DNA from: Lachnospiraceae bacterium
Lineage (GTDB): Bacteria; Bacillota; Clostridia; Lachnospirales; Lachnospiraceae
Assembly: GCA_910575005.1 (NCBI GenBank)
Contig: CAJTCL010000002.1
Coordinates: forward strand, 248,001-312,000
Length of the DNA: 64,000 nucleotides
Reading direction: 5' to 3'
Shown: positions 9,782 to 63,027 of the stretch, piece by piece
Layout of the letters: each line of letters starts with the position of its first letter
Position numbering within the stretch: position 1 is the stretch's first letter
Notes under the pieces: generated by a model
Databases searched by the model: none
What the model was told of the DNA's origin: nothing
Seen by the model: only the letters and a program-made list of their open reading frames with translations
Position numbers and translations under genes: made by a program

Positions 9782-9808
9782 TAAATAATAGGCAGGAGGT
9801 AAGTCTAT

Positions 9809-45264: not shown

Positions 45265-45633
45265 TGAACAACTTTTTGCGCACTCTGCATGCGCAATCTA
45301 TTGTGCAATAGTGCTATTTTCTATGGAAAAAGTTTGTCTATAATGTGAATTGTGTTAGACAAGAAGAAAGTCTACAATTAAATTGTAAGAGTAAATGCGC
45401 AAAAATGCGCAAAAAAAGAATGTTGCAGTAAGAAAAACAGATTAACCGTGAAATGTGACATTTTTTACGGTTGTCTAGAACCGATGTATAGGTAATTTTG
45501 GAATGGATGATTTAGTAGTTTTGCAATTACCTGAATCGATGAAATCAGAAAGGAGAGATAACAGCGACATCATAATTGGGACAGACAGAAGTAACACGAT
45601 AACTTTTTTCAAGAAATAGACAGAGGGATGCAT
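45265..45633. promoter_or_regulatory. Long intergenic region before the GH53 gene, with repeated TGCGCA and inverted repeats
   Basis: No gene is seen. The palindrome TGCGCA occurs four times, in two close pairs (45277, 45290 and 45396, 45406). ACAATTAAATTGT-like dyads lie at about 45371-45388. AGGTAATT (45490-45497) pairs with AATTACCT (45525-45532), flanked by CGAT/ATCG, and would form a leader hairpin before the GH53 start. These are candidate operator or leader elements; no known motif is assigned. Confidence 0.4.
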
Positions 45634-48600
45634 ATGAGAGTGAGAAAAAGAATTTTTTCGGCATTTTTAGCGGTGGTGCTTACGATTACTATGTGTGATT
45701 TTACCAGCATAGCAGGAAAAATAAGCCTGACCGCAGAGGCAGCGGCAGTTTCCGGCAGCGAAAATGCCAATTTTGATTTTGAAGACGGATTAACCGGATG
45801 GGAAAAGACAGGAACGGCTGAGATCAAAAACAGCGGTGCGCAGCATGGAAGCAGTTATCTGCATCTAGAAAAAGATTCATCAGTCACCATGACCTTGACA
45901 GATATCAAACAGGGCAGCTATACACTTTCCGCTTGGGTAAAAGGGACAGCGGGCAAGGATGCCAGAATTATGGTGTCTAAGATAGGCGGACCAGATTCTG
46001 TGGCCTTGATTGATACCTGGAAGAAGGCGGATGCCTGGAATCAGATGGGACATCGGAATGTATTGGTGTACAATGGCCAGATGGAAATTACCGTTTTTTC
46101 TGGTAATCAGCCATTGGATTTAGATCATTTGGAGCTGGTGTTGGATGCGCAAGACCAGCATGCCATTGCCAACTGGGATTTTGAGGCGGGACTAACCTCC
46201 TGGAATCAGACAGGAACAACTGCAGAAGACGGAAACAATGCAGACACAGGCACAAAAGCAGTGCGTCTGGCCGCCGACAGTGAAGTTTCACAGATTGTTG
46301 CAGTGGAGCCTAATACCAAATATGCCCTGACAATGCGGGCTAAAGTAGATAAACAGGATGTCTTTCAAACCACTAAGGTAGAAAGCTCTTACCGCAAGGA
46401 CAGTACTGGAAAACCGGCAATTATGGGAGAGCTGCAGGAACGCACTTCCCTAGGTGACAGGGTGAACTTAGGGGTGCGGCGTGCAGATGGCACAGTGCTC
46501 AGGCAGGCGCCTTCTGGGACAGAAGATTATTCTTTGATTTCTCTGACCTTTACCACAGGACCCAGTGATACGTCGGTAGAGATTTATGCGAATACCAAAT
46601 ATGATCAAAATTATAAGGATTCTGTGACCATTTATAAGACAAACGGGACTGAGCTTGCCGACAATTGGCAGGGGAATGGCTCTGACAATGCCTATGTAGA
46701 TAATTTTGATCTCTTCCAAATCCAGGATGCCAATAATCTTAAAGGGGCAGATGTATCTTTCCTGCCAGCCATTGAGGATCTGGGCGGAAAATATTTTGCC
46801 AATGGTGTGCAGCAGGACTGCCTGCGAATTCTGTCCAATCATGGAGTCAATTCCATCACAAATATGCTGTTTGTCAAAGCAGGAGAGCCAGCGCATTACC
46901 CAGATTCTCTAAAGACGGTTTATATTGATGAGTATTGGAAAGATAATTACTGGTTTAAGGAGGATGGCAGCCAGGCAGAGCTAAAGATGATTCAGGGCGG
47001 ATATTTTGACAAAGAGCATTCTCTGGAGCTTGGCAAGCGTGCCACCGCTCTTGGCATGAGTTATCTGCCCAGCTTCCATTACAGTGACACCTGGATGAGT
47101 GCTGCCAAGGCTTTTTGTCCAGTGGAGTGGTTAGATACTGATTATAATTCGGAAACAGGTTATCAGAATACAGATCTTGCACATATGCAGTCGATTGTCT
47201 ACAACTATGTCTATGATTTTGTAAAGGCGCTGGCGGACAATCAGGTAAATGTCTGCGGCGTCAAGCACGGCAATGAGCAGGATGGCGGTATTATCCGGCC
47301 AGTTGGAAATGGCGCAGCCACGGAAGGCCATGCAAAATTGATTGCGGCCTCTTATCATGCCGCAGAGGATGCAATGCCAGGAGTCAGCGGTTATGTACAT
47401 ACCAACAGCGGCTATGAGACGGCTAAGTTTGGAAATTTCTTCCAGCCGCTGCGTGACAAGGGTGCACAGATGGACGGCACGGCATTCTCACTGTATGGAG
47501 GACGTTCTTCCGGCAATACAGTGAAGATTGCAAATTTTATGGCTAAGGATCCCGCTTTGCGCTATCTGGATTATATCAATGTGGAGACAGGATTTACCTT
47601 TACACGCTATATGCCGACCGTTGATACCGCCAAAAGCAGCATGTACCAGGCGGCCTATTATTATTTATCCCCAAACGGGCAGTATAATTGGCTGCTGGAT
47701 TATGCGCAGGCAGCCTTGGATGCGCCCAATCCTTATGGGCAGACTAGAGGTTTCTACTATTGGGAGACAGATTGGATTCCCACACCGGGAGCGGGTTCTA
47801 CAGACGGCGGTTCTGCAGATGTAAATCAGAGAATTATGTTTAATAATGGCGATACAGCGATTCTGGAGATGGGAAGTTCTCAGCCTGGAAAGGCTGGCGA
47901 TATGATGGATAGTATGTATGCCTATCTGATTCGCGGATGTGCAAAGAATAAAGCACAGACACTGCATACTGAAACCAGCGGGGAAGGCGAGTATGCTGTG
48001 GAAGTGGCAGAACCGACTGGAATTACCCTGTCCAAGACAAGCCTGACACTTGCAGAGGGAGAAAAAGAGCGTCTGAAACCCACGGTTACGCCTGTGGAGA
48101 AGGTACTTTCAGACAGTAATATCACCTATACCTCTTCGGATGCCTCTGTTGCCAAGGTGACAAGAGATGGATTTGTATGCGGCGTCAAAGCGGGCACGGC
48201 AACAATTACGGCTTCTGTGAAAGGTGGACACAGCGCCAATGTAAATGTGACAGTGACCGCAGCGGCAAAAGCTTCTGGCATTACCGTGCAGGCGGACGGA
48301 CAAAAGATTGCTGATCAGGGAACAAAAACAGCCAAGCTTTTTGACAAAATCCAGCTTACGGCCGCATTGGCAGGTTCTGCAACGAATCAGACTGTGATTT
48401 ATACTTCCTCCAACCCTAAGGTGGCTTCTTTCTTAGGGGAGACCTGGCAGACACCAGAGGGGCAGATGCGCCAGGAGACGGAGAAAACAGATACCGAGGT
48501 TCAGTTAAATGTCATTGGAGCAGGAACGACCACCATTACAGCGGCTTCTGCAGATGGCGGAGCTTCTGTAAGTTTTATATTGAATACAACCAAGGTAGAC

Positions 48601-51600
48601 GCCCAGAGTGTGACGGTGGAACCTGGTGAGGTGAGTATCAGTTATGGCCGCAGTAAACAGCTTACTGCAAAAGTGACGCCGGAAGATACCACCCGTTATA
48701 AGATTCATTGGGAATCTTCGGACGAGAAGATTGCAACCGTAGATGAAACTGGTCTGGTGACAGCAACGGGAGTTGGCGATGTGACCATCAAAGCCATTTC
48801 AGATGACAATGACCAGGTGTTTGGCACCTGTATGGTACATGCTGAAAATGTCAGGGCAGAGGGTGTGGAAGTGGATAAGGAAAGCCTTACCCTGCAGGTT
48901 GGCTCTCGCAAAACTTTACATGCCTTAGTATCACCGACAGATACTTATAATAAAAAAGTGAGTTGGACATCCAGCAATCCAGCGATTGCTTCTGTAAATG
49001 AAGATGGTGAGGTGACAGGGGTTGCTATTGGAGGACCTGTTGCGATCACTGCCACCACCGAAGACGGCGGATTTAGCGCTTCCTGTCAGGTGACAGTACA
49101 AAAAGACGCCATTCCTGTGACAGGTATTCTTCTGGAGGAAGAAGAATATTATTTTGCCTCAGATTATTTCTCAGAGACAAATCCTCTGCCAGATCAGCCC
49201 ATTCACCGTCTGAGCGCAAAGGTTGAGCCAGAAACAGCGACTAATACCGATGTGCTTTGGACGTCTGATACCCCAGAAGTGGCTGCAGTAGATGATTTTG
49301 GACGCATCACAGCAGTTGGCGAGGGTGTGGCAGTGATTACCGCAGCCACCAAAGATGGCGATTTTTCCGCCCAGACTAAAGTTTATGTGCCCTCTGTCAG
49401 TGAAAGTTTTGATAACCGCGAAGATGGCGATACCTGGGGAACAAAAGTCAGCGCTACAGGAGGAGGCGCCATTGGAGGTGCTGTTGCAGCTCATACAGAT
49501 CAGAGTGGTAAATTTTTTCAGATGAACGGTTCTGGAAGCGGCAACCGCAGCATTCAAAAGCAATTTGCCAAGAGTATTGCCAATGATATTGTGGAGCTTG
49601 ATTTTGACTGGAATGCAGGCACCTTTGTGGGTGTTGCCGGAAGTACGGCAGGATATATGGCGATCACAGACAGCAGTAACAACCGTTATCTCAGCTTTCA
49701 GATTAATCCAGCTGGGGAGCTTTCCTGGAAGGTTGGCGGAGCAGTGGACGGAGAAATTTTAACGGATGCTGTCTCTCTGGGAGAAAAATTTACCGGAAAA
49801 AATGTCTGGTATCATCTCCATGTGAAACTGGATATGAAACAGAAGAAAACATTCTTTACCATCACAAATAAAGAGAACAAAGAAATCACAACTTCCTGTG
49901 AACAGGCTTTTGATGCCAAGACAGCATATACTGGTGATGTGGCGGCTATTCAGCTTGTGGGAAAACGGGTCAGCGGTTCCAATCTGTCCTGGAATCCAGC
50001 TCTGGATAATGTAAATATTTATAAGACAGCAGTTTTGGCAAGAGGAATTAAAACAGACAGAGAGAAAATAAAACTGATACCGATCAAAGAAACGCTGGGA
50101 GCAAAATGCCAGGTAAAAGCGTCCGTTCTGCCAGCCAGCGCACCTCAGGAATTGAAATGGGAATCTTCCAATACGGATTTAGTGACGGTAGATCAAAATG
50201 GATTGGTTACTCCAAAGGCTACTTATAATTCTCTGGATCAAATTGTGCCGGGAACATGCAGTATTAAGGTTTCTTCTGTGGATGATCCCACTGTGTTCAA
50301 GGAGATTCCGGTAGAGATCAGCAACACGCCCAATGCCTCAGAATTTTTCTCCATTTATGATGAGGCAGGCAAGGAGGTATATCCTGGTGACGAGGCGATC
50401 AATCTTGAGACAGGCGATCGCAGACAGTATCTTCCAAGATTGACGGGAGGAGATGGAGACAGTGATATTGCCGGAATAAAATGGGAATCCAGTGATGACA
50501 AGGTGGTGACAGTGGATCCAGTCAGTGGATTGGTGACAGCAGTAGGAGCTGGCAATGCCCAGGTAACACTTACTGTGACAATGTATGCCGGAAAACCACA
50601 AGTTGGAACACTTCATTTTAAGGTGACAGGCGATACTTTGGCAGATACATCGGCTTTACAGGCAGCAATTGCAGCTGCAAAGGCAGCAAAGAATCAAGAA
50701 GATACTTATTATACAGAGGAAAGTTTGACAGCGTATCAACAAGCACTGCAAAAAGCAGAGGATGATTTGGCTAAGGCTTTGACAGAAAAATGGGATGTCT
50801 CCAAACAATCTTTACTCGACCAAGATGTTGCCGATTTGAATGCAGCCGTTGAGGGATTAAAGAAAGATCATGGGATTAAGAAAATTACCATAGAGGGAAT
50901 TAATGGCAGATTGTGGCTCAATAAGAGTGTTTTGCTTACCGCAGTCACTGAGCCTGCAGATGCAGAGGAAAAGGTGATCTGGTCTTCGAGTGATACTTCT
51001 GTGGTTGTTGTGGATAAGACAAAGGGTCTGGTGATTCCGGTAGGTGCAGGGACAGCAATAATTACTGCTTCTGGAATATATGGAAAAGTGTCTGCCCAAA
51101 CAGAGGTCACAGTCACAGATATGACAGATTTGAGTTCTTGGTATGATGAAAATGGCGTCACAATTTCTGCCACCAATACCAAGGCGGGCAGAGATGTGGA
51201 TTATGCCTTTACCAATGCGCGCACAATGGCGCTTAAGGGTGGGCCCAAAGGGGAACAGGCTTGGTCTACTGGTTCCAATGCAGTCGGTATTATCACGGTA
51301 GATCTCGGAGCCAGAGCCAGAATTGATAACGTTAAGACATGTTTCTATACTTTGTTAAAATATACTTTGGATGTGTCAGACGATGGGGAAAACTGGAGTA
51401 CTGCGGTGGATCATTCTGGGGAAGGAGCAGGTGTCTTAAATGACACAGCTACAGAGCCATTTGTAGATACATTCCCAGAAAATACAGAGGCACGTTTTGT
51501 CAGACTTAATATTCTGGAAAACTGCGGAAAAGCCACAGATTGGACGGGTGTAACCGTGATGCAGGTCAATGGCGCTTTTGTATCAGATATCACTTATGTA

Positions 51601-53076
51601 AAGAGTATTAACTGTGAACCAGTTGAACTGCCAGGAGATACAGAGCTTACTGCGGCAGTCCTTCCTAAGAAAGTATCAGCTCTCTTAAGCACTGGAATCA
51701 CAGAGGAATTGGAGGTTATCTGGGATCAGGAATCCATAGACCAGGTGATAAAAGCACATAAAATAGGCGAATACCAGGTTACAGGAACCATTACCGTGGA
51801 TGATATTGATTATCTTGTCGTCTGCAAATTGACACTCACCGAAGTGGATTTGAGTGGTGCCAAGGTAACATTGGAGCATGACAGTTATGCGTATACCGGA
51901 AATCCAATTGAGCCGGAAGTGACTGTGGTGTGCAATGGAAAGACATTGACAAAGAAAGATTATACAGTGACTTATACAAATAATACAGAGGTAGGAACTG
52001 CCACAGTGACCATAGAGGGAACGGGCATTTATCGCGGAACTGTGACAAAGGAGTTTACGATCACCGAACAGAACACACAAGAAAGAGACTTAAAGGATGC
52101 GGTGGTGACGCTGGAAAAAGATACTTATGTCTATGATGGGAAAGAGAAAACGCCGGCAGTGACAGTGGTACTGAATGAAGAGGAAGTTGCCAAAGAGCAT
52201 TATCAGGTTACATATGCCAACAATATCAATGCTGGCACAGCAGTGGTGACAGTCACCGCAGCAGGCGATGGATATACGGGAATGGTTCAGAAAACCTTTG
52301 TAATTACCAAAAAAGATATCAGTGAGGCTAAGATTAAGCTGAAGACAACCGTATATACTTATAATGGCAAGAAAAAAGCTCCAGCAGTCACAGAAGTAAC
52401 CTTAGATGGCAAAAAATTGGCGGCCAACCGTTATAGAGTGGCTTATAGCAGAAACGTTAATGCGGGTAAAGCAGTGGTGACAGTCAGCGGCACAGGAAAT
52501 TATCAGGGAACTGCAGTGCAGAACTTTACGATCAACAAAGCGGCCGCAAAGATTAAATTTAAGAGCGCTTCCTTTAAGAAAGCATTGGGAGCTAAGAATT
52601 TTGGATTGGGGGCATCCGTCAACAGCAAAGGAAAATTGACTTATGTTTCCAACAACAAAAAAGTGATTAAGATTGTCAAAGGGAAAGCAAAGATTGTGGG
52701 AATTGGTGAGGCCACTGTTACCGTGAAAGCCGCGGCAACCTCCAATTATAAGGCTGCCAGCAAGAAGTTAAAAATCACAGTGACACCAAAAAAGACAGTG
52801 ATAAAATCTGTAAAGAGTACGAAAGCTGGAAAAATAACAGTAAGCTGGAAAAAAGACAGCAAGGCAAGCGGTTATAAGATTCTTTACGCTACGAATAGGA
52901 ACTTTAAAAAAGCCAAAACCACAACTGTGAAATCCAATAAGACCATGAAAAAGACCTTGAGCAAATTAAAGAGAGGCAAGACCTATTATGTAAAGGTCTG
53001 CGCATATAAGACTGTCAAAGGCAAGAAAATTGCTGGCCCTTACAGTGCTGTCAAAAAGGTCAAAGTAAAACGGTAA
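45634..53076 (+). CDS. Giant exported GH53 endo-beta-1,4-galactanase
   Basis: This 2480-residue secreted enzyme should cut beta-1,4-galactan, a pectin side chain. The start is set at 45634 because AGAGGG lies 6 bases upstream; the ATG at 45628 abuts it. A signal peptide (about 1-36) precedes two CBM_4_9-like modules (to about 360). The GH53 domain (about 375-795) shows GADVSFLPAIEDLGGKYF, FHYSDTWMS, E548 in HGNEQDGG (acid/base) and E651 in INVETGF (nucleophile). Then follow about four Big_2 domains, a LamG-like domain (about 1255-1475), more Big_2, a helical FIVAR-like stretch, and an F5/8C-like domain (about 1830-1990). A Big_4-like unit, three MBG-like repeats and a Lys-rich Fn3 end close it. 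No sortase signal is seen. It is a single-gene unit. Confidence 0.85.
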   Translation: MRVRKRIFSAFLAVVLTITMCDFTSIAGKISLTAEAAAVSGSENANFDFEDGLTGWEKTGTAEIKNSGAQHGSSYLHLEKDSSVTMTLTDIKQGSYTLSAWVKGTAGKDARIMVSKIGGPDSVALIDTWKKADAWNQMGHRNVLVYNGQMEITVFSGNQPLDLDHLELVLDAQDQHAIANWDFEAGLTSWNQTGTTAEDGNNADTGTKAVRLAADSEVSQIVAVEPNTKYALTMRAKVDKQDVFQTTKVESSYRKDSTGKPAIMGELQERTSLGDRVNLGVRRADGTVLRQAPSGTEDYSLISLTFTTGPSDTSVEIYANTKYDQNYKDSVTIYKTNGTELADNWQGNGSDNAYVDNFDLFQIQDANNLKGADVSFLPAIEDLGGKYFANGVQQDCLRILSNHGVNSITNMLFVKAGEPAHYPDSLKTVYIDEYWKDNYWFKEDGSQAELKMIQGGYFDKEHSLELGKRATALGMSYLPSFHYSDTWMSAAKAFCPVEWLDTDYNSETGYQNTDLAHMQSIVYNYVYDFVKALADNQVNVCGVKHGNEQDGGIIRPVGNGAATEGHAKLIAASYHAAEDAMPGVSGYVHTNSGYETAKFGNFFQPLRDKGAQMDGTAFSLYGGRSSGNTVKIANFMAKDPALRYLDYINVETGFTFTRYMPTVDTAKSSMYQAAYYYLSPNGQYNWLLDYAQAALDAPNPYGQTRGFYYWETDWIPTPGAGSTDGGSADVNQRIMFNNGDTAILEMGSSQPGKAGDMMDSMYAYLIRGCAKNKAQTLHTETSGEGEYAVEVAEPTGITLSKTSLTLAEGEKERLKPTVTPVEKVLSDSNITYTSSDASVAKVTRDGFVCGVKAGTATITASVKGGHSANVNVTVTAAAKASGITVQADGQKIADQGTKTAKLFDKIQLTAALAGSATNQTVIYTSSNPKVASFLGETWQTPEGQMRQETEKTDTEVQLNVIGAGTTTITAASADGGASVSFILNTTKVDAQSVTVEPGEVSISYGRSKQLTAKVTPEDTTRYKIHWESSDEKIATVDETGLVTATGVGDVTIKAISDDNDQVFGTCMVHAENVRAEGVEVDKESLTLQVGSRKTLHALVSPTDTYNKKVSWTSSNPAIASVNEDGEVTGVAIGGPVAITATTEDGGFSASCQVTVQKDAIPVTGILLEEEEYYFASDYFSETNPLPDQPIHRLSAKVEPETATNTDVLWTSDTPEVAAVDDFGRITAVGEGVAVITAATKDGDFSAQTKVYVPSVSESFDNREDGDTWGTKVSATGGGAIGGAVAAHTDQSGKFFQMNGSGSGNRSIQKQFAKSIANDIVELDFDWNAGTFVGVAGSTAGYMAITDSSNNRYLSFQINPAGELSWKVGGAVDGEILTDAVSLGEKFTGKNVWYHLHVKLDMKQKKTFFTITNKENKEITTSCEQAFDAKTAYTGDVAAIQLVGKRVSGSNLSWNPALDNVNIYKTAVLARGIKTDREKIKLIPIKETLGAKCQVKASVLPASAPQELKWESSNTDLVTVDQNGLVTPKATYNSLDQIVPGTCSIKVSSVDDPTVFKEIPVEISNTPNASEFFSIYDEAGKEVYPGDEAINLETGDRRQYLPRLTGGDGDSDIAGIKWESSDDKVVTVDPVSGLVTAVGAGNAQVTLTVTMYAGKPQVGTLHFKVTGDTLADTSALQAAIAAAKAAKNQEDTYYTEESLTAYQQALQKAEDDLAKALTEKWDVSKQSLLDQDVADLNAAVEGLKKDHGIKKITIEGINGRLWLNKSVLLTAVTEPADAEEKVIWSSSDTSVVVVDKTKGLVIPVGAGTAIITASGIYGKVSAQTEVTVTDMTDLSSWYDENGVTISATNTKAGRDVDYAFTNARTMALKGGPKGEQAWSTGSNAVGIITVDLGARARIDNVKTCFYTLLKYTLDVSDDGENWSTAVDHSGEGAGVLNDTATEPFVDTFPENTEARFVRLNILENCGKATDWTGVTVMQVNGAFVSDITYVKSINCEPVELPGDTELTAAVLPKKVSALLSTGITEELEVIWDQESIDQVIKAHKIGEYQVTGTITVDDIDYLVVCKLTLTEVDLSGAKVTLEHDSYAYTGNPIEPEVTVVCNGKTLTKKDYTVTYTNNTEVGTATVTIEGTGIYRGTVTKEFTITEQNTQERDLKDAVVTLEKDTYVYDGKEKTPAVTVVLNEEEVAKEHYQVTYANNINAGTAVVTVTAAGDGYTGMVQKTFVITKKDISEAKIKLKTTVYTYNGKKKAPAVTEVTLDGKKLAANRYRVAYSRNVNAGKAVVTVSGTGNYQGTAVQNFTINKAAAKIKFKSASFKKALGAKNFGLGASVNSKGKLTYVSNNKKVIKIVKGKAKIVGIGEATVTVKAAATSNYKAASKKLKITVTPKKTVIKSVKSTKAGKITVSWKKDSKASGYKILYATNRNFKKAKTTTVKSNKTMKKTLSKLKRGKTYYVKVCAYKTVKGKKIAGPYSAVKKVKVKR

Positions 53077-53257: not shown

Positions 53258-54103
53258 ATGGCAGAAAGTAAAAATTGCAGCGGTGCTGAGGGCTGTTCAA
53301 GGGAAAGCTGTGAGGGATGTCCCAGTCAGGGCAAAGCGCCTCAGAGCTTGATAGAAGAATGCAATCCTTTTTCCAGTGTCAAGAAAGTAATCGGTGTGGT
53401 CAGTGGTAAGGGCGGAGTGGGCAAATCTTTTGTCACGGCTTCTTTGGCTTGTGCAATGCGTGAGAAAGGATATGAGACGGGGATTTTGGACGCAGATATC
53501 ACAGGACCGTCAATTCCTAAAATGTATGGCGTACATGGACCAGCAGAAGGAACGGATATGGGGTTGTTTCCAGTGCCGGCAGCAGACGGTACAAAGATTA
53601 TGTCCTTAAATCTTTTGATGGATGACGAGGAGGCTCCTGTCGTGTGGCGTGGGCCGGTCATTGCTTCTACTGTAAAACAGTTTTGGCATGATGTATATTG
53701 GGGGGATTTGGATTATCTGTTTGTAGATATGCCTCCGGGAACTGGAGATGTGCCGCTTACTGTGTTCCAGTCCTTACCAGTGGATGGGATAATCATAGTC
53801 ACTTCCCCGCAGGAATTGGTACAATTGATTGTCAAAAAGGCCGTCAATATGGCAAATATGATGAATATCCCAGTGCTTGGACTGGTGGAAAACTACAGTT
53901 TTTTGAAATGTCCCGACTGTGGGAAGGAGATCAAATTATTTGGTGAGAGCAAGATTGAGGAAGTAGCAGCACAGATGGAACTTCCAGTACTTGGAAAGAT
54001 GCCTTTGGATCCAGAGTATGCTAAAATAGCAGATCAAGGACAGTTCCATAAAATGAAAAATCCATATTTGGAAGATGCAGTGGAAAAAGTAGAAAATTTA
54101 TAA
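53258..54103 (+). CDS. Mrp/NBP35-type Fe-S cluster carrier ATPase
   Basis: This is a 281-residue cytoplasmic P-loop ATPase of the Mrp/NBP35 (ApbC) family, which binds and hands over Fe-S clusters. An N-terminal cysteine-rich segment (CSGAEGCSRESCEGC) resembles the NBP35 type. The deviant Walker A is VSGKGGVGKS, then DADITGPSIPKMYG. The MPPGTGD motif and the cluster-binding CPDCG follow. It has AGGAGG before the ATG and sits alone between a structured leader and a terminator. Which enzymes it serves cannot be read from the neighbours. Confidence 0.9.
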   Translation: MAESKNCSGAEGCSRESCEGCPSQGKAPQSLIEECNPFSSVKKVIGVVSGKGGVGKSFVTASLACAMREKGYETGILDADITGPSIPKMYGVHGPAEGTDMGLFPVPAADGTKIMSLNLLMDDEEAPVVWRGPVIASTVKQFWHDVYWGDLDYLFVDMPPGTGDVPLTVFQSLPVDGIIIVTSPQELVQLIVKKAVNMANMMNIPVLGLVENYSFLKCPDCGKEIKLFGESKIEEVAAQMELPVLGKMPLDPEYAKIADQGQFHKMKNPYLEDAVEKVENL

Positions 54104-54530: not shown

Positions 54531-54692
54531 ATGAAAGTGATCTTCGAGGAATACAGCGGGATTATCATCACAGCCGTGGCAATTATTGCCTTGATTGCAG
54601 TGGTGGGATTGCTGCTTACAGCCAATGGTCCAGTACACACAGCTTTTGTGGATCTGATTGACACTTTGTTCAACAAGACAAAGGTTTCTTAG
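54531..54692 (+). CDS. Small pilin-like membrane peptide 1
   Basis: This 53-residue peptide starts MKVIFEEYSG, has one hydrophobic helix (about 11-32, IIITAVAIIALIAVVG) and a short polar end. GGGGGAA lies just before the ATG. It is the first gene of a locus with a Tad-type ATPase and membrane platform, where the major pilin usually sits. Its first ten residues match two further tiny peptides downstream (MKQVLEEFGG and MREVLEEYGK). No normal class III signal peptide with a Gly-x-Phe cleavage site is seen, but the conserved Glu pair next to the helix recalls pilin Glu5. Function is inferred from context. Confidence 0.65.
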   Translation: MKVIFEEYSGIIITAVAIIALIAVVGLLLTANGPVHTAFVDLIDTLFNKTKVS

Positions 54693-54813
54693 ACCAAGGC
54701 AGATGGGGCGGCCTGATCGTCTCAGGCTGTCCCCAATTCCAAATAAGACAGTTTGCAAAGGTCAGATATAAGAATAATAGATATTGAGAGGAATGACAGA
54801 ATGGAGGGAATAG

Positions 54814-55953
54814 ATGAAATATGAATGGGAATTGACAGAGGAGGAATTTGGCCCCTTTTTTCCCTATATTCAGGATAAAGATGTGACAGATATTGACTAT
54901 AATGGCAAGATGTTGTGGATTGCAGACTTAAGAAGAGGCAGGTATCGGGCAGATGTGGCAATTACAGAGGAATTTGTAGAGCGATTTACCCATAGAATTG
55001 CCAATCGGGTCAACAAACCCTTTAACCGTGCCAATAATGTACTTGAAGCTGAGACCAATGAACTTCGTATCAGTATTGTCCATGAATCGGCGGCGGTGTC
55101 TGGACGCAGTATTTGTATTCGCAAATCACTGCCCAAAGTTCGTCATACAGTGGAAAGTATACTTGACAGCGGATATTGTTCTCTAGAAATCTTAAGTCTT
55201 CTGATTAACTGTGTGAAAGCAAAGATGAATTTTGCATTTTGTGGGGAGCCAGGGGTTGGAAAGACAGAATGTGCTAAATTTTTTTCCCGCTTTATCCCCC
55301 CTAATCAGAGAGCCATCACCATAGAAGATAATTTAGAAATGCATTTTCATGAGATCAACCCTGAGAATGATTGCGTAGAACTGCAGGTCAGCAAAGAATT
55401 AAGCTATACAGACGCCATTAAGTTGTGCCTAAGGCAGAATCCAAAATGGATTATTTTATCGGAGGCTCGTTCCACAGAAGTACAGTATCTCTTAGAGCAG
55501 TGGTCGACAGGGGTTTATGGATTTACTACGCTGCATTTAGATGATTTAAGAAATCTTCCAGATCGGATTATGAATATGATTGGGCGTTCCCGAGATGCAG
55601 ACCGTCTTGAGAATTATATCTATGAATTTATCAGTGTCGGGGTATTGATTCGACAGTACGAAAATGATCAGGGAATGTTAGAGCGTTATGTTGATCAGAT
55701 GTGTTTTTACGATCGATTTGCAGGAAAAAATGAAATTTATCTACTGGTAGAGGATGGAAAACAAATTTCAGATGTAATTCCAACAGATATTTTAAAAAGG
55801 ATGCATCGGGCAGGGATTCAAGAGCCATTTCATTGCCCTGAAACTTGTGCCTATGAGCCGCTTGATGTGGAAGTGGTAAAGGCATACAAAGATCAGGAGA
55901 AGAAGATGGCCGCAAAGTCAGAAAAATATTTGGAAGCAGAGAAGGGGAGTTGA
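54814..55953 (+). CDS. Tad-type secretion/pilus ATPase (TadA/CpaF-like)
   Basis: This is a 379-residue cytoplasmic hexameric ATPase of the type II/IV secretion family that powers pilus assembly. An N-terminal domain (about 1-115) precedes the motor domain. Walker A is GEPGVGKT with K150; the Asp box follows near TIEDNLEMHF. Walker B is WIILSEARST, and the His box is GFTTLHLDD. It belongs with CpaF/TadA rather than PilB, which has zinc-binding cysteines. It is followed after 1 bp by the membrane platform gene. Confidence 0.85.
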   Translation: MKYEWELTEEEFGPFFPYIQDKDVTDIDYNGKMLWIADLRRGRYRADVAITEEFVERFTHRIANRVNKPFNRANNVLEAETNELRISIVHESAAVSGRSICIRKSLPKVRHTVESILDSGYCSLEILSLLINCVKAKMNFAFCGEPGVGKTECAKFFSRFIPPNQRAITIEDNLEMHFHEINPENDCVELQVSKELSYTDAIKLCLRQNPKWIILSEARSTEVQYLLEQWSTGVYGFTTLHLDDLRNLPDRIMNMIGRSRDADRLENYIYEFISVGVLIRQYENDQGMLERYVDQMCFYDRFAGKNEIYLLVEDGKQISDVIPTDILKRMHRAGIQEPFHCPETCAYEPLDVEVVKAYKDQEKKMAAKSEKYLEAEKGS

Positions 55954-55954
55954 T

Positions 55955-57469
55955 ATGAAGAAAAAAGAACAGACAGAGGGAAGAAAGAGAGTGGGAAAAT
56001 TTGAGTTATTTCATCCTGCCAATTTACAGAGACAGATTGACAGCTATGGTTATAGTTTTTCAATGGGAAAATACAGTGTATTTCTTACAATAGCTGTGGC
56101 AGGGGCAATTGGCTGTGGAGTGTTATTTTGCCTAAAATGGTATTTGATTTTGCCAGTTGTGCTTGCCTGTGCCGCAGCGCTGCCTAGATTGATTTTGGAT
56201 GGCTATAAGCAGATGTATGAGCATAAACAATTTCTGGATGTCTCCGATTATATCGAACAAATGTTGTATTCTTTTCGCCTGAATCAAAAAATACTGCTTT
56301 CATTGAGAGATACCCAAACTTTATATGCCAGAGGAAGAATGCATCAAATGATCGGAGCATCTATGGATTATATTGAACAGGGAATTTATCAGAGAGATTT
56401 GTATCGGGAAGCGCTAGAAATCATAGAACAGGCATATCCAACCAATCGCCTGTTAGCGGTACATGAATATCTGCGGACGGTGGAGAGCAACGGCGGATCC
56501 TGTGAGGAGGGGATTGAGCTTCTTTTGCAGGATAAGGCTGTCTGGGCGGATAATGTAATCTTATTGCAGGAGGAGAAGCGGGCGGCGCGCACACGGGTAA
56601 TTTTTTCTCTGGTCGTGACAATGCTGCTGGCTGTTATTTTTCACGGAGTCTATCGCTCTATGCCTTCACAATATACGATTGTCTATCACCCTGTGACACA
56701 GGTGACGACAACATTGTATCTGATTTTAAATATCCAGATTTTTTGTAAAGCGAACAGGCAGCTTGCAAAGAGTTGGTTAAAAGTGGAAAATCTGGAGCAG
56801 GAGAAGATTTTTCAATATTTTCAGATGGTAAGCAGCTTTGAGGAACAAAAAGAGGGCAGAAAAAGCTTGTTTTTTGGGGGAATATTTTTATCGGGTGCTG
56901 GTGTGGCATGGCTTTTGGGAAATCTTATTGTGGCGGTTCCTGTCACTGGATTTGGAATTTTCTTATTGAATCAGCACAAAATAGGATATCGTGTTGCCTA
57001 TGATAAGGTGGTTCGAGAGATCAATCGGGTATTTCCAAGCTGGCTGATGGAAATGGCGCTGCTATTGCAGGGCAATAATGTGCAGGTTGCCATAGAGAAG
57101 ACCATTGACCATGCAGCAGCGGTATTACGCACAGATTTGCAGAAACTGTCAGATAATCTCAAACGGACACCAGATGCCATAGAGCCATATCTGGAATTTC
57201 TGGGAATGTTTCAATTATCTTCCGTACTCTCCTCTATGAAAATGCTCTATGCTATTTCTGAGTCCGGCAGCGGAGATGCACAGGCGCAGATTCGGATTTT
57301 GGTACAGCGCAACAGCAAGATGATGGACAAATCGGAGAAGTTGTCCAATGAGAAAAGTCTTGCCGGAATCAATGGGGTATTTTATCTGCCGCAGGTGACA
57401 GTATCGGTTCAGACTATGGTCAATATGGTAGTGTTTATGTTGGTATTTTTGGGACAGATGAGATTGTAG
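55955..57469 (+). CDS. Tad-like inner-membrane platform protein (TadB/TadC-like, double length)
   Basis: This is a 504-residue membrane protein of the type II secretion F / TadB-TadC kind. Hydrophobic segments lie at about 42-80, 213-235, 245-262, 300-335 and 480-502, with helical cytoplasmic parts between. The second half contains EMALLLQGNNVQVAIEKTI and AISESGSGDAQAQIRILVQR, typical of the T2SSF core. Many Tad systems use two proteins of about 300 residues; here one protein of 504 may hold both halves. It is directly downstream of the ATPase, its usual partner. Confidence 0.72.
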   Translation: MKKKEQTEGRKRVGKFELFHPANLQRQIDSYGYSFSMGKYSVFLTIAVAGAIGCGVLFCLKWYLILPVVLACAAALPRLILDGYKQMYEHKQFLDVSDYIEQMLYSFRLNQKILLSLRDTQTLYARGRMHQMIGASMDYIEQGIYQRDLYREALEIIEQAYPTNRLLAVHEYLRTVESNGGSCEEGIELLLQDKAVWADNVILLQEEKRAARTRVIFSLVVTMLLAVIFHGVYRSMPSQYTIVYHPVTQVTTTLYLILNIQIFCKANRQLAKSWLKVENLEQEKIFQYFQMVSSFEEQKEGRKSLFFGGIFLSGAGVAWLLGNLIVAVPVTGFGIFLLNQHKIGYRVAYDKVVREINRVFPSWLMEMALLLQGNNVQVAIEKTIDHAAAVLRTDLQKLSDNLKRTPDAIEPYLEFLGMFQLSSVLSSMKMLYAISESGSGDAQAQIRILVQRNSKMMDKSEKLSNEKSLAGINGVFYLPQVTVSVQTMVNMVVFMLVFLGQMRL

Positions 57470-57478
57470 GAGGGTGAT

Positions 57479-57814
57479 ATGGGACAGGTAATTAAGACAT
57501 ATCTGGGACTGTTTTTTCTTTTGGTAACAGGGATGGTGGGAATTGGCGTGGTATCGGCTGGAATCCAGTCTGCCAATGCCAGAAGTTATCATGCAGATGT
57601 GATCAGTGAGATTGAGTGCAGTAATTTTAATGAAACAGTGATGGAGGCCTGCAGACAGCAGGCACAAAAAGAGGGCTATCGGCTGCAGGTAAAGACAATG
57701 GCTTACGATAAGCAGGGACATAAAAAGCTGGCAGAGGTGATTTTAGATTATCAATATGCAATCCCTATCTTGAACCTGGTGACAGATCATCAAGTGCGTG
57801 GGTTTGCAAAATAA
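57479..57814 (+). CDS. Small pilin-like protein of the Tad-like locus (111 aa)
   Basis: This 111-residue protein has one N-terminal hydrophobic helix (about 7-30, LGLFFLLVTGMVGIGVVSAG) directly followed by a polar ectodomain, the outline of TadE-like pseudopilins. The ectodomain has two cysteines (in IECSNFNETVMEACRQQ) that could form a disulfide. It lies 9 bp after the platform gene. No closer family is recognised. Confidence 0.6.
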   Translation: MGQVIKTYLGLFFLLVTGMVGIGVVSAGIQSANARSYHADVISEIECSNFNETVMEACRQQAQKEGYRLQVKTMAYDKQGHKKLAEVILDYQYAIPILNLVTDHQVRGFAK

Positions 57815-57829
57815 AGGAGGGAACTTAGA

Positions 57830-57937
57830 ATGAAGCAAGTGTTGGAGGAGTTTGGCGGTGCTTTGATCTATAGTATCGCAGGGGGAAGTATGCTGGGACT
57901 GTTTCTTTATCTTCTGGAGAAACTGCTTGGATCATGA
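57830..57937 (+). CDS. Small pilin-like membrane peptide 2 (35 aa)
   Basis: This is a 35-residue frame with AAAGGAGGG before its ATG at 57830. The sequence starts MKQVLEEFGG and is otherwise one hydrophobic helix with a short basic end (EKLLGS). The start motif is shared with the 53- and 46-residue peptides of the same locus, which is the main reason to call it a real gene despite its size. Confidence 0.6.
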   Translation: MKQVLEEFGGALIYSIAGGSMLGLFLYLLEKLLGS

Positions 57938-58106
57938 TGAGAGCAAAGAGGATGAGATCAGGAATGATTGGAGAATTATGATAACTAAGGAGAATGCGGA
58001 TGATAATGGAAAAATGGTGAAATGCAGATGATCACAACAGAAGCATAGAGAAGGTACTTACTTAATGCGTAATATATTTGAAAAATTGAAAGAGGAGGAA
58101 AAATTG

Positions 58107-58247
58107 ATGAGAGAAGTATTAGAAGAATATGGGAAAATGGTATTGGCAGTGATTACGGCAGCGTTATTATTGGGATTTACTACAATCTTTCTGACAGAGG
58201 GACAGTTTTATGAGGCAATCCAGACATTTTCGCAGAGTATCTGTTAG
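58107..58247 (+). CDS. Small pilin-like membrane peptide 3 (46 aa)
   Basis: This 46-residue peptide starts MREVLEEYGK, followed by a hydrophobic helix (MVLAVITAALLLGFTTIFL) and a short polar tail with a final cysteine. The start at 58107 is chosen because GAGGAGG lies 8-9 bases upstream; an upstream in-frame ATG at 58065 would add 14 charged residues and break the shared motif. Third member of the set with the MKxVxEEY/F start. Confidence 0.62.
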   Translation: MREVLEEYGKMVLAVITAALLLGFTTIFLTEGQFYEAIQTFSQSIC

Positions 58248-58255
58248 GGGGAGAG

Positions 58256-58720
58256 ATGAACAAAGTATTTCGAGAATTATCAGGATGGCTTGTTGCAGCA
58301 CTTGTATTTGCGGCGGTGGCAGCGATTTTGACAGGAGGTTCTCTGTTGGAAAATGTTGGACGGCGCATGGAGGTACAGGAAGAAGATTTTTCTAGTATGG
58401 CTGATAGCAAGGCAGTTGCAGCCGTGTGTGAGCGTAAAGAACCAATTATTCGCTGCATTGGAGAGAAAATATGGTCAGCAGGAGAGAACATCTCAATTTC
58501 TCAAGTGTTTGAAGCTGAAGATGCAGAGGGGAGAGAGCTTGAGATCACTGTGATAGATATCACTGACCAGGAGGGAAACAGTGTGATCAACTGCTATCGC
58601 GAGGATATGCAGCAGGCGGTATTTTGGGAGAAGGGGATTTATACTTTTTTACTAAAAGCAATTGACAAGGAACGTAAGACTTGTACAGAAAAGATGCCAA
58701 TTTTGATAGATCAAAGATAA
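58256..58720 (+). CDS. Minor-pilin-like protein with Ig-like ectodomain (154 aa)
   Basis: This 154-residue protein has an N-terminal hydrophobic helix (about 11-31) and an ectodomain (about 60-150) with the look of a DUF5011/HYR-like Ig fold (a first strand after PIIRCIGEKIW, then AEDAEGRELEITVID, GIYTFLLKAIDKERKT). The same kind of domain appears twice near the C-terminus of the 1221-residue protein of this locus. It lies 8 bp after the third small peptide. Confidence 0.6.
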   Translation: MNKVFRELSGWLVAALVFAAVAAILTGGSLLENVGRRMEVQEEDFSSMADSKAVAAVCERKEPIIRCIGEKIWSAGENISISQVFEAEDAEGRELEITVIDITDQEGNSVINCYREDMQQAVFWEKGIYTFLLKAIDKERKTCTEKMPILIDQR

Positions 58721-58734
58721 ATACAGGAGGGTAA

Positions 58735-59322
58735 ATGAAGTATTCGATTTATGGTGTAGTACTGATGGTGTTGGCAGTTTTAGCCATTGCCAGTGGTATG
58801 GTGGTCAGTGGCAAGGATATTCGTGAAAATGAGATGGATAAGGCCTTGAATACAGCAGTGGAGCAGACAATGGAGCAATTGAACAAAGAAGGCGGATATG
58901 AGATTCGAGATGCACAGGAGTTGATTGCTGATTTTCACCAGTCCCTGTTGCTGCATATCTCCTCTGACAGTGATTTGGAAGTAAAAATTCTCACCGCTGA
59001 CACCGAAAAGGGAGTGTTGGATGTGGAGGTGAGACAAACATATCAAACCCTGAGAGGAACCAAGAAAGAGGCAGTGTGCAGAAAGACGGTGCTTTTGGAA
59101 CAGTATTCTGATAAACAAGAGTATTGTGTAGTGGAATTTCTGGTAAATGGGACGATTTATGACAAGTATACCATATATCCGGGCGGCTCGCTTTCTCTGC
59201 CCCCAGAGCCCAAGGCAGAAGGTCATGTATTTCGGGGATGGAAGAGAATGGGCAGTCAAGGATTGGCATTAGATGGAATGTGTGTTGAGGAAAGTATGTC
59301 ATTTCAGGCAGAATTTTTGTAA
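58735..59322 (+). CDS. Minor-pilin-like protein with C-terminal InlB-type repeat (195 aa)
   Basis: This 195-residue protein has an N-terminal hydrophobic helix (about 4-24), a helical part (EMDKALNTAVEQTMEQL, as in the long N-terminal helix of pseudopilins), a beta-rich domain, and a C-terminal Listeria-Bacteroides repeat (YTIYPGGSLSLPPEPKAEGH, FRGWKRM). TadE/TadF-like minor pilins have a similar outline. The same repeat type occurs in the next gene. AGGAGG precedes the start. Confidence 0.62.
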   Translation: MKYSIYGVVLMVLAVLAIASGMVVSGKDIRENEMDKALNTAVEQTMEQLNKEGGYEIRDAQELIADFHQSLLLHISSDSDLEVKILTADTEKGVLDVEVRQTYQTLRGTKKEAVCRKTVLLEQYSDKQEYCVVEFLVNGTIYDKYTIYPGGSLSLPPEPKAEGHVFRGWKRMGSQGLALDGMCVEESMSFQAEFL

Positions 59323-59361
59323 GTTGTATAATCATATTGTAGTAGATAGAGGAGGGAAGGA

Positions 59362-62300
59362 ATGAGAGAAAAAGTATGGTCAATATTGCTTTCCATTGCA
59401 ATATTGGCAAGTGGTGTAAATACTTCAGCCATTGTCGAAAAACATACAAAAGAAACAGAGAAAATGGAGCAAAAGATTGTTTCGGAGCCAAAAAAACAAT
59501 CCCCTAAGCAGGTGTCACCAGAGGATGGGGAAAAAGAGAAGTCCGAGATTATGGAAATTCAGTCTAAAATTAATCAAAAGAAAGCATTTCCATCTGTCTG
59601 GTTTGCTGCACATGATGAAAGATATCAGGAGACAAAGGGATATTTTTATATTTATGTGCGCAAGGAAGGGCAATCAATAGAGGAAGGCCATTGGTATAGG
59701 GTGGATATGTCAGTTGACAGTCTGTCAGCGCAGATTTCTCAAAAGATTGACTGGAAAATGACTTATCTGGGGAATTTACCTGTCTCAAAAAAGGATTGTG
59801 TAGAAGAATGGATTAAGAAATCAGATAAAGATCCTACCAAAGATTTTGATTATTTTATGTTTGAAATTGAAAAAGGGAAGGCATGGCAGGCAACAAGACA
59901 GGATGCCTATGGCACAAAACCAGTATTGTCAGATCCAGCAGTGCTTACAGAGGAGCAGAAAAATCTGGGATTTCCTTATCCTGAGCGTTATTATATGCTG
60001 TGTGGAAAATTTTGTTATCAAGTGCGGGGTTATCAAATGTATTTTGACAATTCTGTATTTGAGGATTTGAAGTTAATGGATATTGAGAAAGAAAATAAGG
60101 ATATCCAAAAAATAGATCAAAAGCTGGAAAAGGATGAAAAGCCTTGGACTGGAGATGGTTATTTTAAATTTGCCATAGATACTAATAATGTAGGGATGAC
60201 CGCTGCAGGGGCATCTGGACAATTTCATCATGCCATGTATGGATTTTTTTTAAAGCCCAATCGATACACCATAAAATTTAATGCCAATGGCGGCACAGGA
60301 ACAATGAAGAGTCAAAATGCAATTTATGATAGGATGCTGCTCCTCAATGCCAATCAATACAGCAGAACAGGATATCAATTTTATGGATGGAATACAAAAA
60401 AAGAAACGTCGTCCGCCACAACAGATTTTGGAGATCGGGAAGTAGTGATGAATCTGACTGCAAAGCATCAAGAAACAGTCACACTGTATGCTCAATGGAA
60501 GCCGAACGTCTATATGGCTACTTTGGATAATCAAAAAGCTGATTTGGAAGCAGGGACAGCAAAATTGTATCAGAAATATGATACTGGCTGGTACAGCAAC
60601 AAAAAATGTACCGTTGCCTTGAGAGAACGAGAAAAACAGATTAATCAGGCCATTACCATACCTCAAAAGGAGGGCTATAAGTTTTTGGGATATTATGATA
60701 AAAAGAAAGGCGGTACAAAGATGGTCGGGCCTCGCGGAAAATTGACCACGGAGGGGGTGGCTGATTTTAAGATGCATCAAGATACCACCTGGTATGCCCA
60801 GTGGGAGCCAAAGATTTACAATATCACTTTGAATCATTGCCTGAAAAAACCAGAAGTTGCTGGGACAGATAAATTATATAAAAAATACCAGAAGGGTTTG
60901 TTTTTTGATGATATATGTGAGCAGAAAATTTATCAAGAGGAAACTGTTGCCACACCTAAGAAGGAAGGATTTGTGTTTCGAGGTTATTACAGTTCCAAGA
61001 CAGAGGGAGTAAAATTGATCAATGATGCTGGAAAATTGACCAAAGAAGGACAAAAGAGCAAGAATCAGCTCGGGAATGAAATTTGGTATGCACAATATAA
61101 TTATCAGATCAAATGTGAAGATTATGCAGATATTCCCTGTGATCTGGAAAAGACAGAGAATGATAACCGAGAAGAATTGGGTGTGCGTATTGCATATGAT
61201 GATAGTAAAAGAAAGGTGACAGCCATTACAAAACAGGCAGGGAGCATCATTTCCTTGCGTGGTCAGCCGATAGGCACAAAGGTAGGGAATTTTCAGTCAA
61301 GCGCAGGCGTAAATTCCTTCTCAACTGCGACTGCGAAAGCAAAAAGAGCAGAATTGTCACTAATTCCAGAGGAAGGAGCAGCATATCAATTGGAAGTAAC
61401 TGAGGGGAATCGTACCGTTTGCAGCCGCAAGGTATATTATCAAAATGGGCGTTTTCGTACCCTGGTTAAATTGGGTGAGCAGGAAACTATAACGATAAAG
61501 CATGGCAGTAGTATTGCTGGCAGCAGGTGGGGAGCGGATGCAAGTGAAAGTCATTATTATCCAATGTATCGTTATAGGGATTGTTCCGAAATAAAGAAAA
61601 TCAGTACACCGACAACAGTATACCGCTATTTCCAATATATAGGTGTAAACATGGCATACAGTGGAAATGGGGCTACAAAGGGAAAGAATATGCTGGAGTA
61701 TGATGTTTCTCTGGAGAATTTATATCAATTTCGTAAGAATGTTTTTGAGAAAGAATTATCAGAACACAAAAAGACAGCAGCAGGAACAAGTTATGATTGC
61801 AAGGTAAAATATGGTTTTGAGGGTTGGAATATGAAAGCGGGAATGAAAAAACAGCCAGCAGAGAAAAAGCTTGCGCTTGTATTTTATCGGGAGGCTGAGA
61901 GAGAAAAAATTCTTTCTGACAGCACCACAGAATCAGCCACATCTTATCTATCTGTGAAACCAATTACTGTTGTAGGAAACTTGTTGGCGGAAAGTCAAAC
62001 TCGACAGGGGCAGATGGAAGAACAAACGATTCTAGCAGCGGGAGCGAATAAACATGCTTCTAGTTATATCAATCTTACAGCGCAGTGGAATGCTTACCCT
62101 ACTATTGTAGTGACACCAGGAGAAGAGCTGGAATTTTATGAGGGGGAAGAGGTCAAAAAAGAAGACCTAATCCGTCATCTGACAGCACATGATACAGAGG
62201 ATAACGGTGGAGAGGCAGACAGATTGAATCCAAACTATCAAGCCTTAAATCAAAAGATCCGAATTATAAAGATTTCTTATCCAGCCTCAAAAAACGGTAC

Positions 62301-63027
62301 ACGCAAGGCAAGCGAAAAAGTATATCAAAAGGATGTGCCCAAAAGTTTTCTCTTAGATACCTATTATTTAAAATTGGAAAAAGGGGAAAACGTGGATATT
62401 TTAGTGACTTTTGCGGTCACAGACAGTGATGATCAAACGACAGAGGAAGTACTGAAAGTTAAGGTGAAATACAATCATCCGCCCAAAATCAGTTGTGATC
62501 AGCCATATTATTATCTCAAAGAAGAGGTAAACCAAGGGCAGATTACGGAGAAGACATTATTATCACGGGCAGCGGCAAAGGATGTGGAGGATGGAATTTT
62601 AACAAAAAAATTAAAATTGATCGATTTTAATCCTATGGCATTGAAAATGCAGACAGAGTATAAAACAGAATTTCCAATTACATATCAGGTGACAGATGCA
62701 TATCGAAAAACCACGATCTGTACAGCAAAGGTGATTGTATGGGATGAGATGGCTTATCAGGCAGAAGAAAATAAGAATTATGTTCGTTTTATATCAGAGG
62801 AATATCTGTGGACACTAGAAAAGGAATCCATTTGGAGAGACAAAGAAAATATATCATATCTAAAAGCAGTCTTAGGGAATACATCACCAATGGAAACCTG
62901 GAAATTTACACACCAGGATGTACTTGCCATACAAGCATGGATTACAGAACATGGAGAAGGCCATTGGAAAGCAGGTTCAAAAGCCAATCAGGAATTTCTA
63001 AATAAATTCGCCTATTGCAGACAATAA
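59362..63027 (+). CDS. Large exported protein with InlB/Flg_new repeats and Ig-like C-terminal domains
   Basis: This 1221-residue protein has an N-terminal signal sequence (about 1-24). An unrecognised domain (about 70-300) precedes Listeria-Bacteroides (InlB B / Flg_new) repeats at about 305-380, 385-490 and 490-580 (FNANGGTGTM, YGWNTKKE, WYAQWEPKIY). A middle part of unknown fold follows. Near the C-terminus are two DUF5011-like Ig domains (about 905-1025 and 1030-1130, AHDTEDNGG and AAKDVEDGILTKK). No LPXTG or Lys-rich end is seen. It is last in the Tad-like locus, just before the terminator, and may be the tip adhesin or exported cargo; that role is an inference from position and shared domains. 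Confidence 0.7.
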   Translation: MREKVWSILLSIAILASGVNTSAIVEKHTKETEKMEQKIVSEPKKQSPKQVSPEDGEKEKSEIMEIQSKINQKKAFPSVWFAAHDERYQETKGYFYIYVRKEGQSIEEGHWYRVDMSVDSLSAQISQKIDWKMTYLGNLPVSKKDCVEEWIKKSDKDPTKDFDYFMFEIEKGKAWQATRQDAYGTKPVLSDPAVLTEEQKNLGFPYPERYYMLCGKFCYQVRGYQMYFDNSVFEDLKLMDIEKENKDIQKIDQKLEKDEKPWTGDGYFKFAIDTNNVGMTAAGASGQFHHAMYGFFLKPNRYTIKFNANGGTGTMKSQNAIYDRMLLLNANQYSRTGYQFYGWNTKKETSSATTDFGDREVVMNLTAKHQETVTLYAQWKPNVYMATLDNQKADLEAGTAKLYQKYDTGWYSNKKCTVALREREKQINQAITIPQKEGYKFLGYYDKKKGGTKMVGPRGKLTTEGVADFKMHQDTTWYAQWEPKIYNITLNHCLKKPEVAGTDKLYKKYQKGLFFDDICEQKIYQEETVATPKKEGFVFRGYYSSKTEGVKLINDAGKLTKEGQKSKNQLGNEIWYAQYNYQIKCEDYADIPCDLEKTENDNREELGVRIAYDDSKRKVTAITKQAGSIISLRGQPIGTKVGNFQSSAGVNSFSTATAKAKRAELSLIPEEGAAYQLEVTEGNRTVCSRKVYYQNGRFRTLVKLGEQETITIKHGSSIAGSRWGADASESHYYPMYRYRDCSEIKKISTPTTVYRYFQYIGVNMAYSGNGATKGKNMLEYDVSLENLYQFRKNVFEKELSEHKKTAAGTSYDCKVKYGFEGWNMKAGMKKQPAEKKLALVFYREAEREKILSDSTTESATSYLSVKPITVVGNLLAESQTRQGQMEEQTILAAGANKHASSYINLTAQWNAYPTIVVTPGEELEFYEGEEVKKEDLIRHLTAHDTEDNGGEADRLNPNYQALNQKIRIIKISYPASKNGTRKASEKVYQKDVPKSFLLDTYYLKLEKGENVDILVTFAVTDSDDQTTEEVLKVKVKYNHPPKISCDQPYYYLKEEVNQGQITEKTLLSRAAAKDVEDGILTKKLKLIDFNPMALKMQTEYKTEFPITYQVTDAYRKTTICTAKVIVWDEMAYQAEENKNYVRFISEEYLWTLEKESIWRDKENISYLKAVLGNTSPMETWKFTHQDVLAIQAWITEHGEGHWKAGSKANQEFLNKFAYCRQ

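Follow-up and report, generated by a model that had tools for sequence, protein, structure and literature searches.

A compact, probably Tad-derived locus of gut Clostridia encoding tiny pilin-like peptides that may be assembled without leader cleavage

The window, a 64,000-nucleotide stretch of a Lachnospiraceae genome of 4.29 Mb, is located on contig C2 and carries a series of nine + strand genes (54531-63027), downstream of a gene encoding an Mrp-type ATPase. Homologous loci were collected by means of the platform protein and comprised a close set, consisting of the window and 21 named relatives, and distant loci, in which platform identity is mostly 24-35%. The nine genes are as follows, with assignments predicted from sequence or modelled structure:

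54531..54692, + strand: 53-aa peptide, predicted major Flp-type pilin; ATG start, MKVIFEEYSG, then a hydrophobic helix, then a tail
54814..55953, + strand: TadA/VirB11-class ATPase, 379 aa; T2SSE match, E 4.7e-15
55955..57469, + strand: likely platform protein, a membrane protein of 504 aa with two predicted T2SSF-type domains
57479..57814, + strand: 111-aa subunit, predicted minor pilin; N-terminal helix, MGQVIKTYLG
57830..57937, + strand: 35-aa peptide MKQVLEEFGG, predicted minor pilin; ATG start, found in 20/22 close loci
58107..58247, + strand: 46-aa peptide MREVLEEYGK, predicted minor pilin; ATG start, found in 20/22 close loci
58256..58720, + strand: 154-aa subunit MNKVFRELSG with a predicted outer domain
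58735..59322, + strand: 195-aa subunit, candidate tip subunit; modelled fold with an InlB B-repeat domain
59362..63027, + strand: 1221-aa repeat protein, candidate adhesin partner; Listeria-Bacteroides repeats over cut-off

Family profile searches returned no credible match for six of the nine products, the exceptions being the ATPase and the 195- and 1221-aa proteins. The 111-aa protein is conserved in close and distant loci, and the same searches found no family common to its relatives. Positional counterparts of the 154-aa protein in distant loci bear the full N-terminal motif described below, and two of them, of 364 and 374 aa, match LRR_5 below the cut-off. For the 195-aa protein, the model predicts a long N-terminal helix, followed by a further helix, three strands and, last, the InlB B-repeat domain; acidic residues are absent from its first 27 residues, its match to the Listeria-Bacteroides repeat falls below the cut-off, and a weak match to SpoIIIAG was also recorded (E 0.028). 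The C-terminal region of the 1221-aa protein is similar to that of large proteins encoded in distant loci.

The genomic surroundings were inspected by eye. The Mrp-type P-loop ATPase gene (53258-54103) lies directly 5' of the operon and also occurs in most close loci and in the distant locus L077. Further upstream, positions 45628-53076 encode a 2482-aa surface protein with many Ig-like repeats and a catalytic part resembling galactanase-type glycosidases. In many close loci (e.g., L038, L039, L041-L043), the region is bounded by an opposite-strand gene resembling those of substrate-binding proteins, about 6-8 kb past the platform start.

The three tiny frames of 53, 35 and 46 residues reported in the preliminary description are present, each with its own ATG. 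For the third peptide, an in-frame upstream ATG would yield 60 aa; the start of the 46-aa form, preceded by a ribosome-site-like stretch, is the one kept by relatives. Orthologues of the 53-mer occur in 22/22 close loci, and the two loci in which the 35- and 46-mers are missing are those where the contig ends first (L051, L056). Across 20-22 close loci, dN/dS was approximately 0.08 for the 53-mer, 0.19 for the 35-mer and 0.29 for the 46-mer, values that are rough because of near-saturated synonymous sites. All 22 close loci share an identical stretch of 12 residues at the start of the 53-mer (MKVIFEEYSGII). The tiny frames are thus conserved genes under purifying selection. Two particulars were observed among the relatives: an Ile-Cys pair ends the peptide of 46-47 aa in all 20 close orthologues, and the first peptide occurs in L063 (5461-5854) as a tandem duplicate with identical protein sequences, as a highly expressed pilin might show.

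The ATPase and the platform-like protein were confirmed beside the peptides, as initially described. The ATPase exceeds the cut-off of the T2SSE model and matches the VirB11 (4.1e-26) and TadA-family (5.2e-22) models below their respective cut-offs. Walker A is present in 45/45 loci and a Walker B-like box in 43/45, while identity to the two canonical TadA proteins of the same genome is 27% over 215-260 residues. Judged from its sequence, the motor is an intact TadA/VirB11-class ATPase of the secretion superfamily. The 504-aa protein itself has no Pfam match, and T2SSF matches were obtained for 5/22 of its relatives. PilC, SpoIIIAB and EpsF are the nearest matches to its predicted fold, which makes it a likely platform; the C-terminal half is modelled as SpoIIIAB-like, with SpoIIIAB appearing in one match list with PilC and EpsF. 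We thus regard it as probably a two-domain PilC/GspF-like platform. Among the platform carriers of the family sample, the platform match falls within a single protein, its open frame measuring 425-549 aa, and no separate TadB and TadC are present.

The platform gene (E<=0.001) was detected in 26/200 genomes of the same family, in 4/295 genomes of an order sample and in 2/291 of a class sample, with the own genome counted in each and at most five candidates per genome scored in the last two samples. With the exception of G571, all order and class carriers belong to the same family. The lack of a prepilin peptidase gene in the window, also noted at the outset, is borne out by the location of the three PF01478 matches of the genome on contigs C1 and C3. 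In all 29 carriers, the vicinity of the locus, as far as the contigs reach (a few are short), is free of prepilin peptidase genes, and each carrier (26/26 and 3/3) encodes one elsewhere in the genome, the PF01478 matches being on other contigs in 27 and on the same contig, more than 1 Mb away, in two (G104, G138).

A common N-terminus unites the small proteins of these loci. To count as a carrier of the motif, an ORF had to begin M-x-x-phi-phi-x-[EQDK]-[YFHWN]-[mostly small], continue into a hydrophobic stretch and have sequence resembling a ribosome site ahead of its start. Across 45 loci (L076 was left out, being on the same contig as L041), the operon strand, 434.8 kb in all, yielded 138 such ORFs, one of which, a 39-aa frame in L089, looks spurious, vs none in 1212.2 kb elsewhere on both strands, a contrast far beyond chance. 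Sorted by length and place, 43 are upstream peptides, 37 have 32-40 aa, 41 have 42-65 aa and 17 have 139-374 aa; in distant loci, the N-terminus is found on more proteins than the three peptides, including those of 139-374 residues. Because the pattern fixes positions 4, 5, 7, 8 and 9 to sets of letters, residue counts at these positions in the 45 loci are partly so by construction. A stricter earlier count gave 86/548 ORFs inside operons and 1/1029 outside, the single outside match being a peptide that belongs to the L047 operon and has been shifted out of it by an insertion. In that locus, a 397-aa gene that appears transposase-like by eye (8706-9899) lies between the ATPase and the platform, and all three peptides are kept.

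The unchanged pattern was then applied to six held-out carriers (G034, G049, G056, G097, G108, G168), where it was present in 6/6 loci, with 16 ORFs in 59.0 kb of operon and none in 125.0 kb elsewhere. The preliminary description had specified that loss of the motif from loci keeping the ATPase and platform would speak against it; the motif was instead kept in 51/51 loci, the totals being 154 ORFs over 494 kb of operon strand and none over 1,337 kb elsewhere, although the presence of near relatives (such as L063/L066 and L048/L057) means that these are not 51 independent events.

Several lines of evidence bear on what the peptides are. When first peptides were compared one at a time with PDB sequences, three of the five searched matched the Caulobacter Tad pilin PilA (8u1k), with E values of 0.0015 (L060), 0.0032 (L065) and 0.0010 (L074); the window's own first peptide and that of L089 had no PDB match. 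In the L074 search, designed repeat proteins outscored PilA by summing weak stretches. A profile of 26 first peptides placed PilA and a second Flp pilin at the top of 177,635 PDB sequences (E 0.012 and 0.071). Flp_Fap (5) and Flp1_like (4) were the Pfam families matched by most of the 26 first peptides, all below cut-off: for Flp_Fap (PF04964), the cut-off of 32.2 bits was never reached, the five matches being at E<=10 and the best scoring 16.0 bits (L065). Among database relatives, P0292 and P0316 were named 'Flp pilus assembly pilin Flp' by JGI, and another 'hypothetical protein'. Taken together, the PilA matches, the profile, the Pfam families and the JGI names make it likely, from sequence comparison, that the tiny peptides are pilins. 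Of the roles initially left open, namely minimal pilins, assembly factors or exported peptides, the evidence favours minimal pilins of the Flp kind. The 53-aa first peptide would be the major pilin, and the 35-, 46-, 111-, 154- and 195-aa proteins minor pilins. The same genome also encodes, on other contigs, two canonical tad loci (L078, L079) with leader-bearing Flp pilins of 74 and 55 aa, whose leaders measure 13 and 29 residues by eye.

Type IV pilins are described as carrying a leader, ending in Gly or Ala, that is removed by a prepilin peptidase before assembly (excerpt of PMC10191384), and Glu+5 with Tyr+6 is stated, in a passage of PMC3244431, to be a mark of mature Flp pilins. In the three PDB matches, Glu7-Tyr8 of the peptides aligns with the mature Glu+5 and Tyr+6, and peptide residue 7 falls on mature residue 5 in each, the place of the mature end being taken from the alignment. 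For L060 and L065, Glu7-Tyr8-Gly9 lies on mature Glu5-Tyr6-Gly7, with one 2-residue gap and an alignment reaching the end of PilA. Pairwise alignments to PilA placed the first block at offset 2 in 21/26 first peptides, and 6 of these 21 had z >=4 against shuffled tails; part of this agreement comes from the EYG match itself, and the window's own peptide reached z = 1.5 against shuffled tails. As for the start itself, position 7, counted from the annotated start, immediately precedes the aromatic residue in 102 among the 120 relatives listed of 712, and an in-frame ATG, GTG or TTG upstream, before a stop, is absent in 70/113 motif ORFs, a possible in-frame start at least six codons upstream being present in 37/113. 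These data suggest that the mature pilin end is some two residues past the start codon, and that the peptides would be assembled without cleavage of a leader, a reading to which we give about an even chance.

The registers are not all in agreement. Besides the hydrophobic stretch, which is present, the register of the single PilA searches conflicts with that of the profile, whose alignment to PilA runs at offset 7 and not 2, and with that of Flp1_like. In the latter (L064, L065), residues 4-24 lie on 3-23, and Gly9 coincides with the glycine at -1 of the cleavage site, a placement obtained by arithmetic via the Flp of the own genome. The peptides might then be pilins with a short but ordinary leader (MKxxxEEYG, or one residue more), cut after Gly9 or Gly10 by the peptidase of a canonical tad locus elsewhere in the genome, and yielding products mostly lacking Glu5. 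This is the less probable of the two, though it deserves serious weight. A glycine is found at position 9 or 10 in 135/138 motif ORFs and in 30/36 rows of the 111-aa family, and nine to ten residues is near the usual length of a type IVa pilin leader. A hidden cleavage site would account for the constancy of Gly9/10, and the glycine may equally be that of EYG; Glu, Gln or Asp at position 7 is equally constant (135 ORFs, Glu alone in 117). All 29 carriers encode peptidases, and MSH pilus loci, likewise lacking a peptidase gene, may borrow one (excerpt of PMC6668835); the presence of a peptidase is, however, uninformative, because 199/200 family genomes have one. One of the two canonical Flp pilins of the genome, that of 74 aa, also seems by eye to lack Glu5. 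Against a short leader, cleavage would remove the conserved Glu-Tyr, the pair by which the passage cited (PMC3244431) marks out mature Flp pilins, and the residue at +5 after Gly9/10 is Glu in only five of the motif ORFs as listed. Five first peptides carry Gly9-Pro10, which is presumably an unlikely site of cleavage, and neither Gly nor Ala occurs within residues 6-11 in 4/36 rows of the 111-aa set and 6/36 of the 195/154-aa sets, the 111-aa and 195-aa sets having been picked by pattern and containing a double start in L066 as well as some 154-aa proteins. On balance, we lean towards assembly of uncleaved peptides. The held-out loci strengthen the observation of the motif, not the choice between these two readings.

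Two other explanations concern the nature of the subunits rather than their processing. The peptides could be small membrane subunits of a secretion machine, comparable to the small subunits of the SpoIIIA sporulation channel and exporting, for example, the large repeat protein. That no peptide passed a pilin cut-off, that the C-terminal half of the platform is SpoIIIAB-like, that the 195-aa protein weakly matches SpoIIIAG and that a large secreted protein often adjoins the operon would all fit, but Tad pilin similarity was found in 3/5 single searches, PilC and EpsF stand in the same platform match list as SpoIIIAB, and the 1221-aa protein has, by eye, a signal-peptide-like start of its own; moreover, the stretches examined of L058, L064, L067, L069, L070 and L091 contain no gene of more than 600 aa. 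We therefore hold a secretion machine to be improbable. Still less probable is that the first peptide alone is a pilin, and the 35- and 46-aa peptides are platform regulators or assembly chaperones merely sharing its N-terminal helix. The PDB searches and Tad pilin matches do cover relatives of the first peptide only, the 35-mer has little besides its helix, and the 35- and 46-mers show a higher dN/dS than the 53-mer. The start motif is, however, common to all, and is also borne by the 17 larger proteins (139-374 aa), which have outer parts; such a distribution over peptides and larger proteins is what would be expected for parts of one filament.

We accordingly propose, as a reading about evenly poised between right and wrong, that the locus is a compact Tad-derived pilus machine, whose three peptides are Flp-type pilins assembled without leader cleavage. 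The proposal starts from observations, namely a conserved gene set, the catalytic motifs of the ATPase, selection on the peptides and the motif in every homologous locus read. The single helix would insert each peptide in the membrane, with the short N-terminus staying cytoplasmic, and the ATPase and platform would push subunits outward one at a time. Glu6/Glu7 may take the role of the usual Glu5, while the amine of Met1 or the common Lys/Arg2 could substitute for the freed N-terminal amine. The 195-aa subunit, with its InlB-type domain and its first 27 residues free of acidic side chains, may cap the tip, where the 1221-aa repeat protein could be attached to it as an adhesin. More tentatively, and with somewhat less confidence than in the proposal itself, these loci may represent a gut-Clostridia branch of type IV filaments without the prepilin-peptidase step, in which all subunits (about 32-374 residues) are born with the mature N-terminus, and Lys/Arg2 and Glu6/Glu7 replace the contact of the cleaved amine with Glu5.

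The locus resembles Tad/Flp (type IVc) loci in its TadA-class ATPase, its platform of likely T2SSF fold, its small one-helix Glu-Tyr pilins and its several further small subunits. It differs in that TadV is absent nearby, no operon gene matched the TadZ or RcpC families, TadB and TadC are replaced by one two-domain platform of about 500 aa, and the peptides are predicted to lack the conventional leader of Tad/Flp pilins. A passage on Gram-positive tad-like loci (PMC3244431) describes a set mostly from Clostridia in which no protein has an apparent prepilin signal, as may be the case here; unlike in the present locus, the genes given for those loci include tadV, tadZ and rcpC as well as tadA and tadC, and small Glu-Tyr peptides are not described in that passage. 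MSH pili, according to an excerpt of PMC6668835, are also encoded by loci without a prepilin peptidase gene, but are derived from type IVa and not Tad systems, and perhaps use the peptidase of another system. Caulobacter PilA (8u1k) is likewise a small helical pilin, and its EYG and its tail can be aligned with those first peptides that matched it (L060, L065 and L074), but it is described in part of PMC11067988 as made with a 14-residue signal and cut to 45 residues. No account of leaderless pilins or of the present locus was found among the literature matches listed, whose coverage excludes subscription papers and preprints.

The system is real, widespread and compact, with several tiny pilin-like subunits, and is probably Tad-derived; nor is it rare, given the share of sampled family genomes (26/200) that carry the platform gene. 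If the peptides are assembled as made, leader cleavage would be a dispensable feature of the superfamily. Tools that seek a leader would then miss such systems, the more so as several of the genes have 32-50 codons; PilFind and SignalP are named as finders of type IV pilins (excerpt of PMC10191384). For study, the locus would provide a filament machine of very small size, as well as a candidate surface organelle of gut commensals, equipped with an internalin-type domain.
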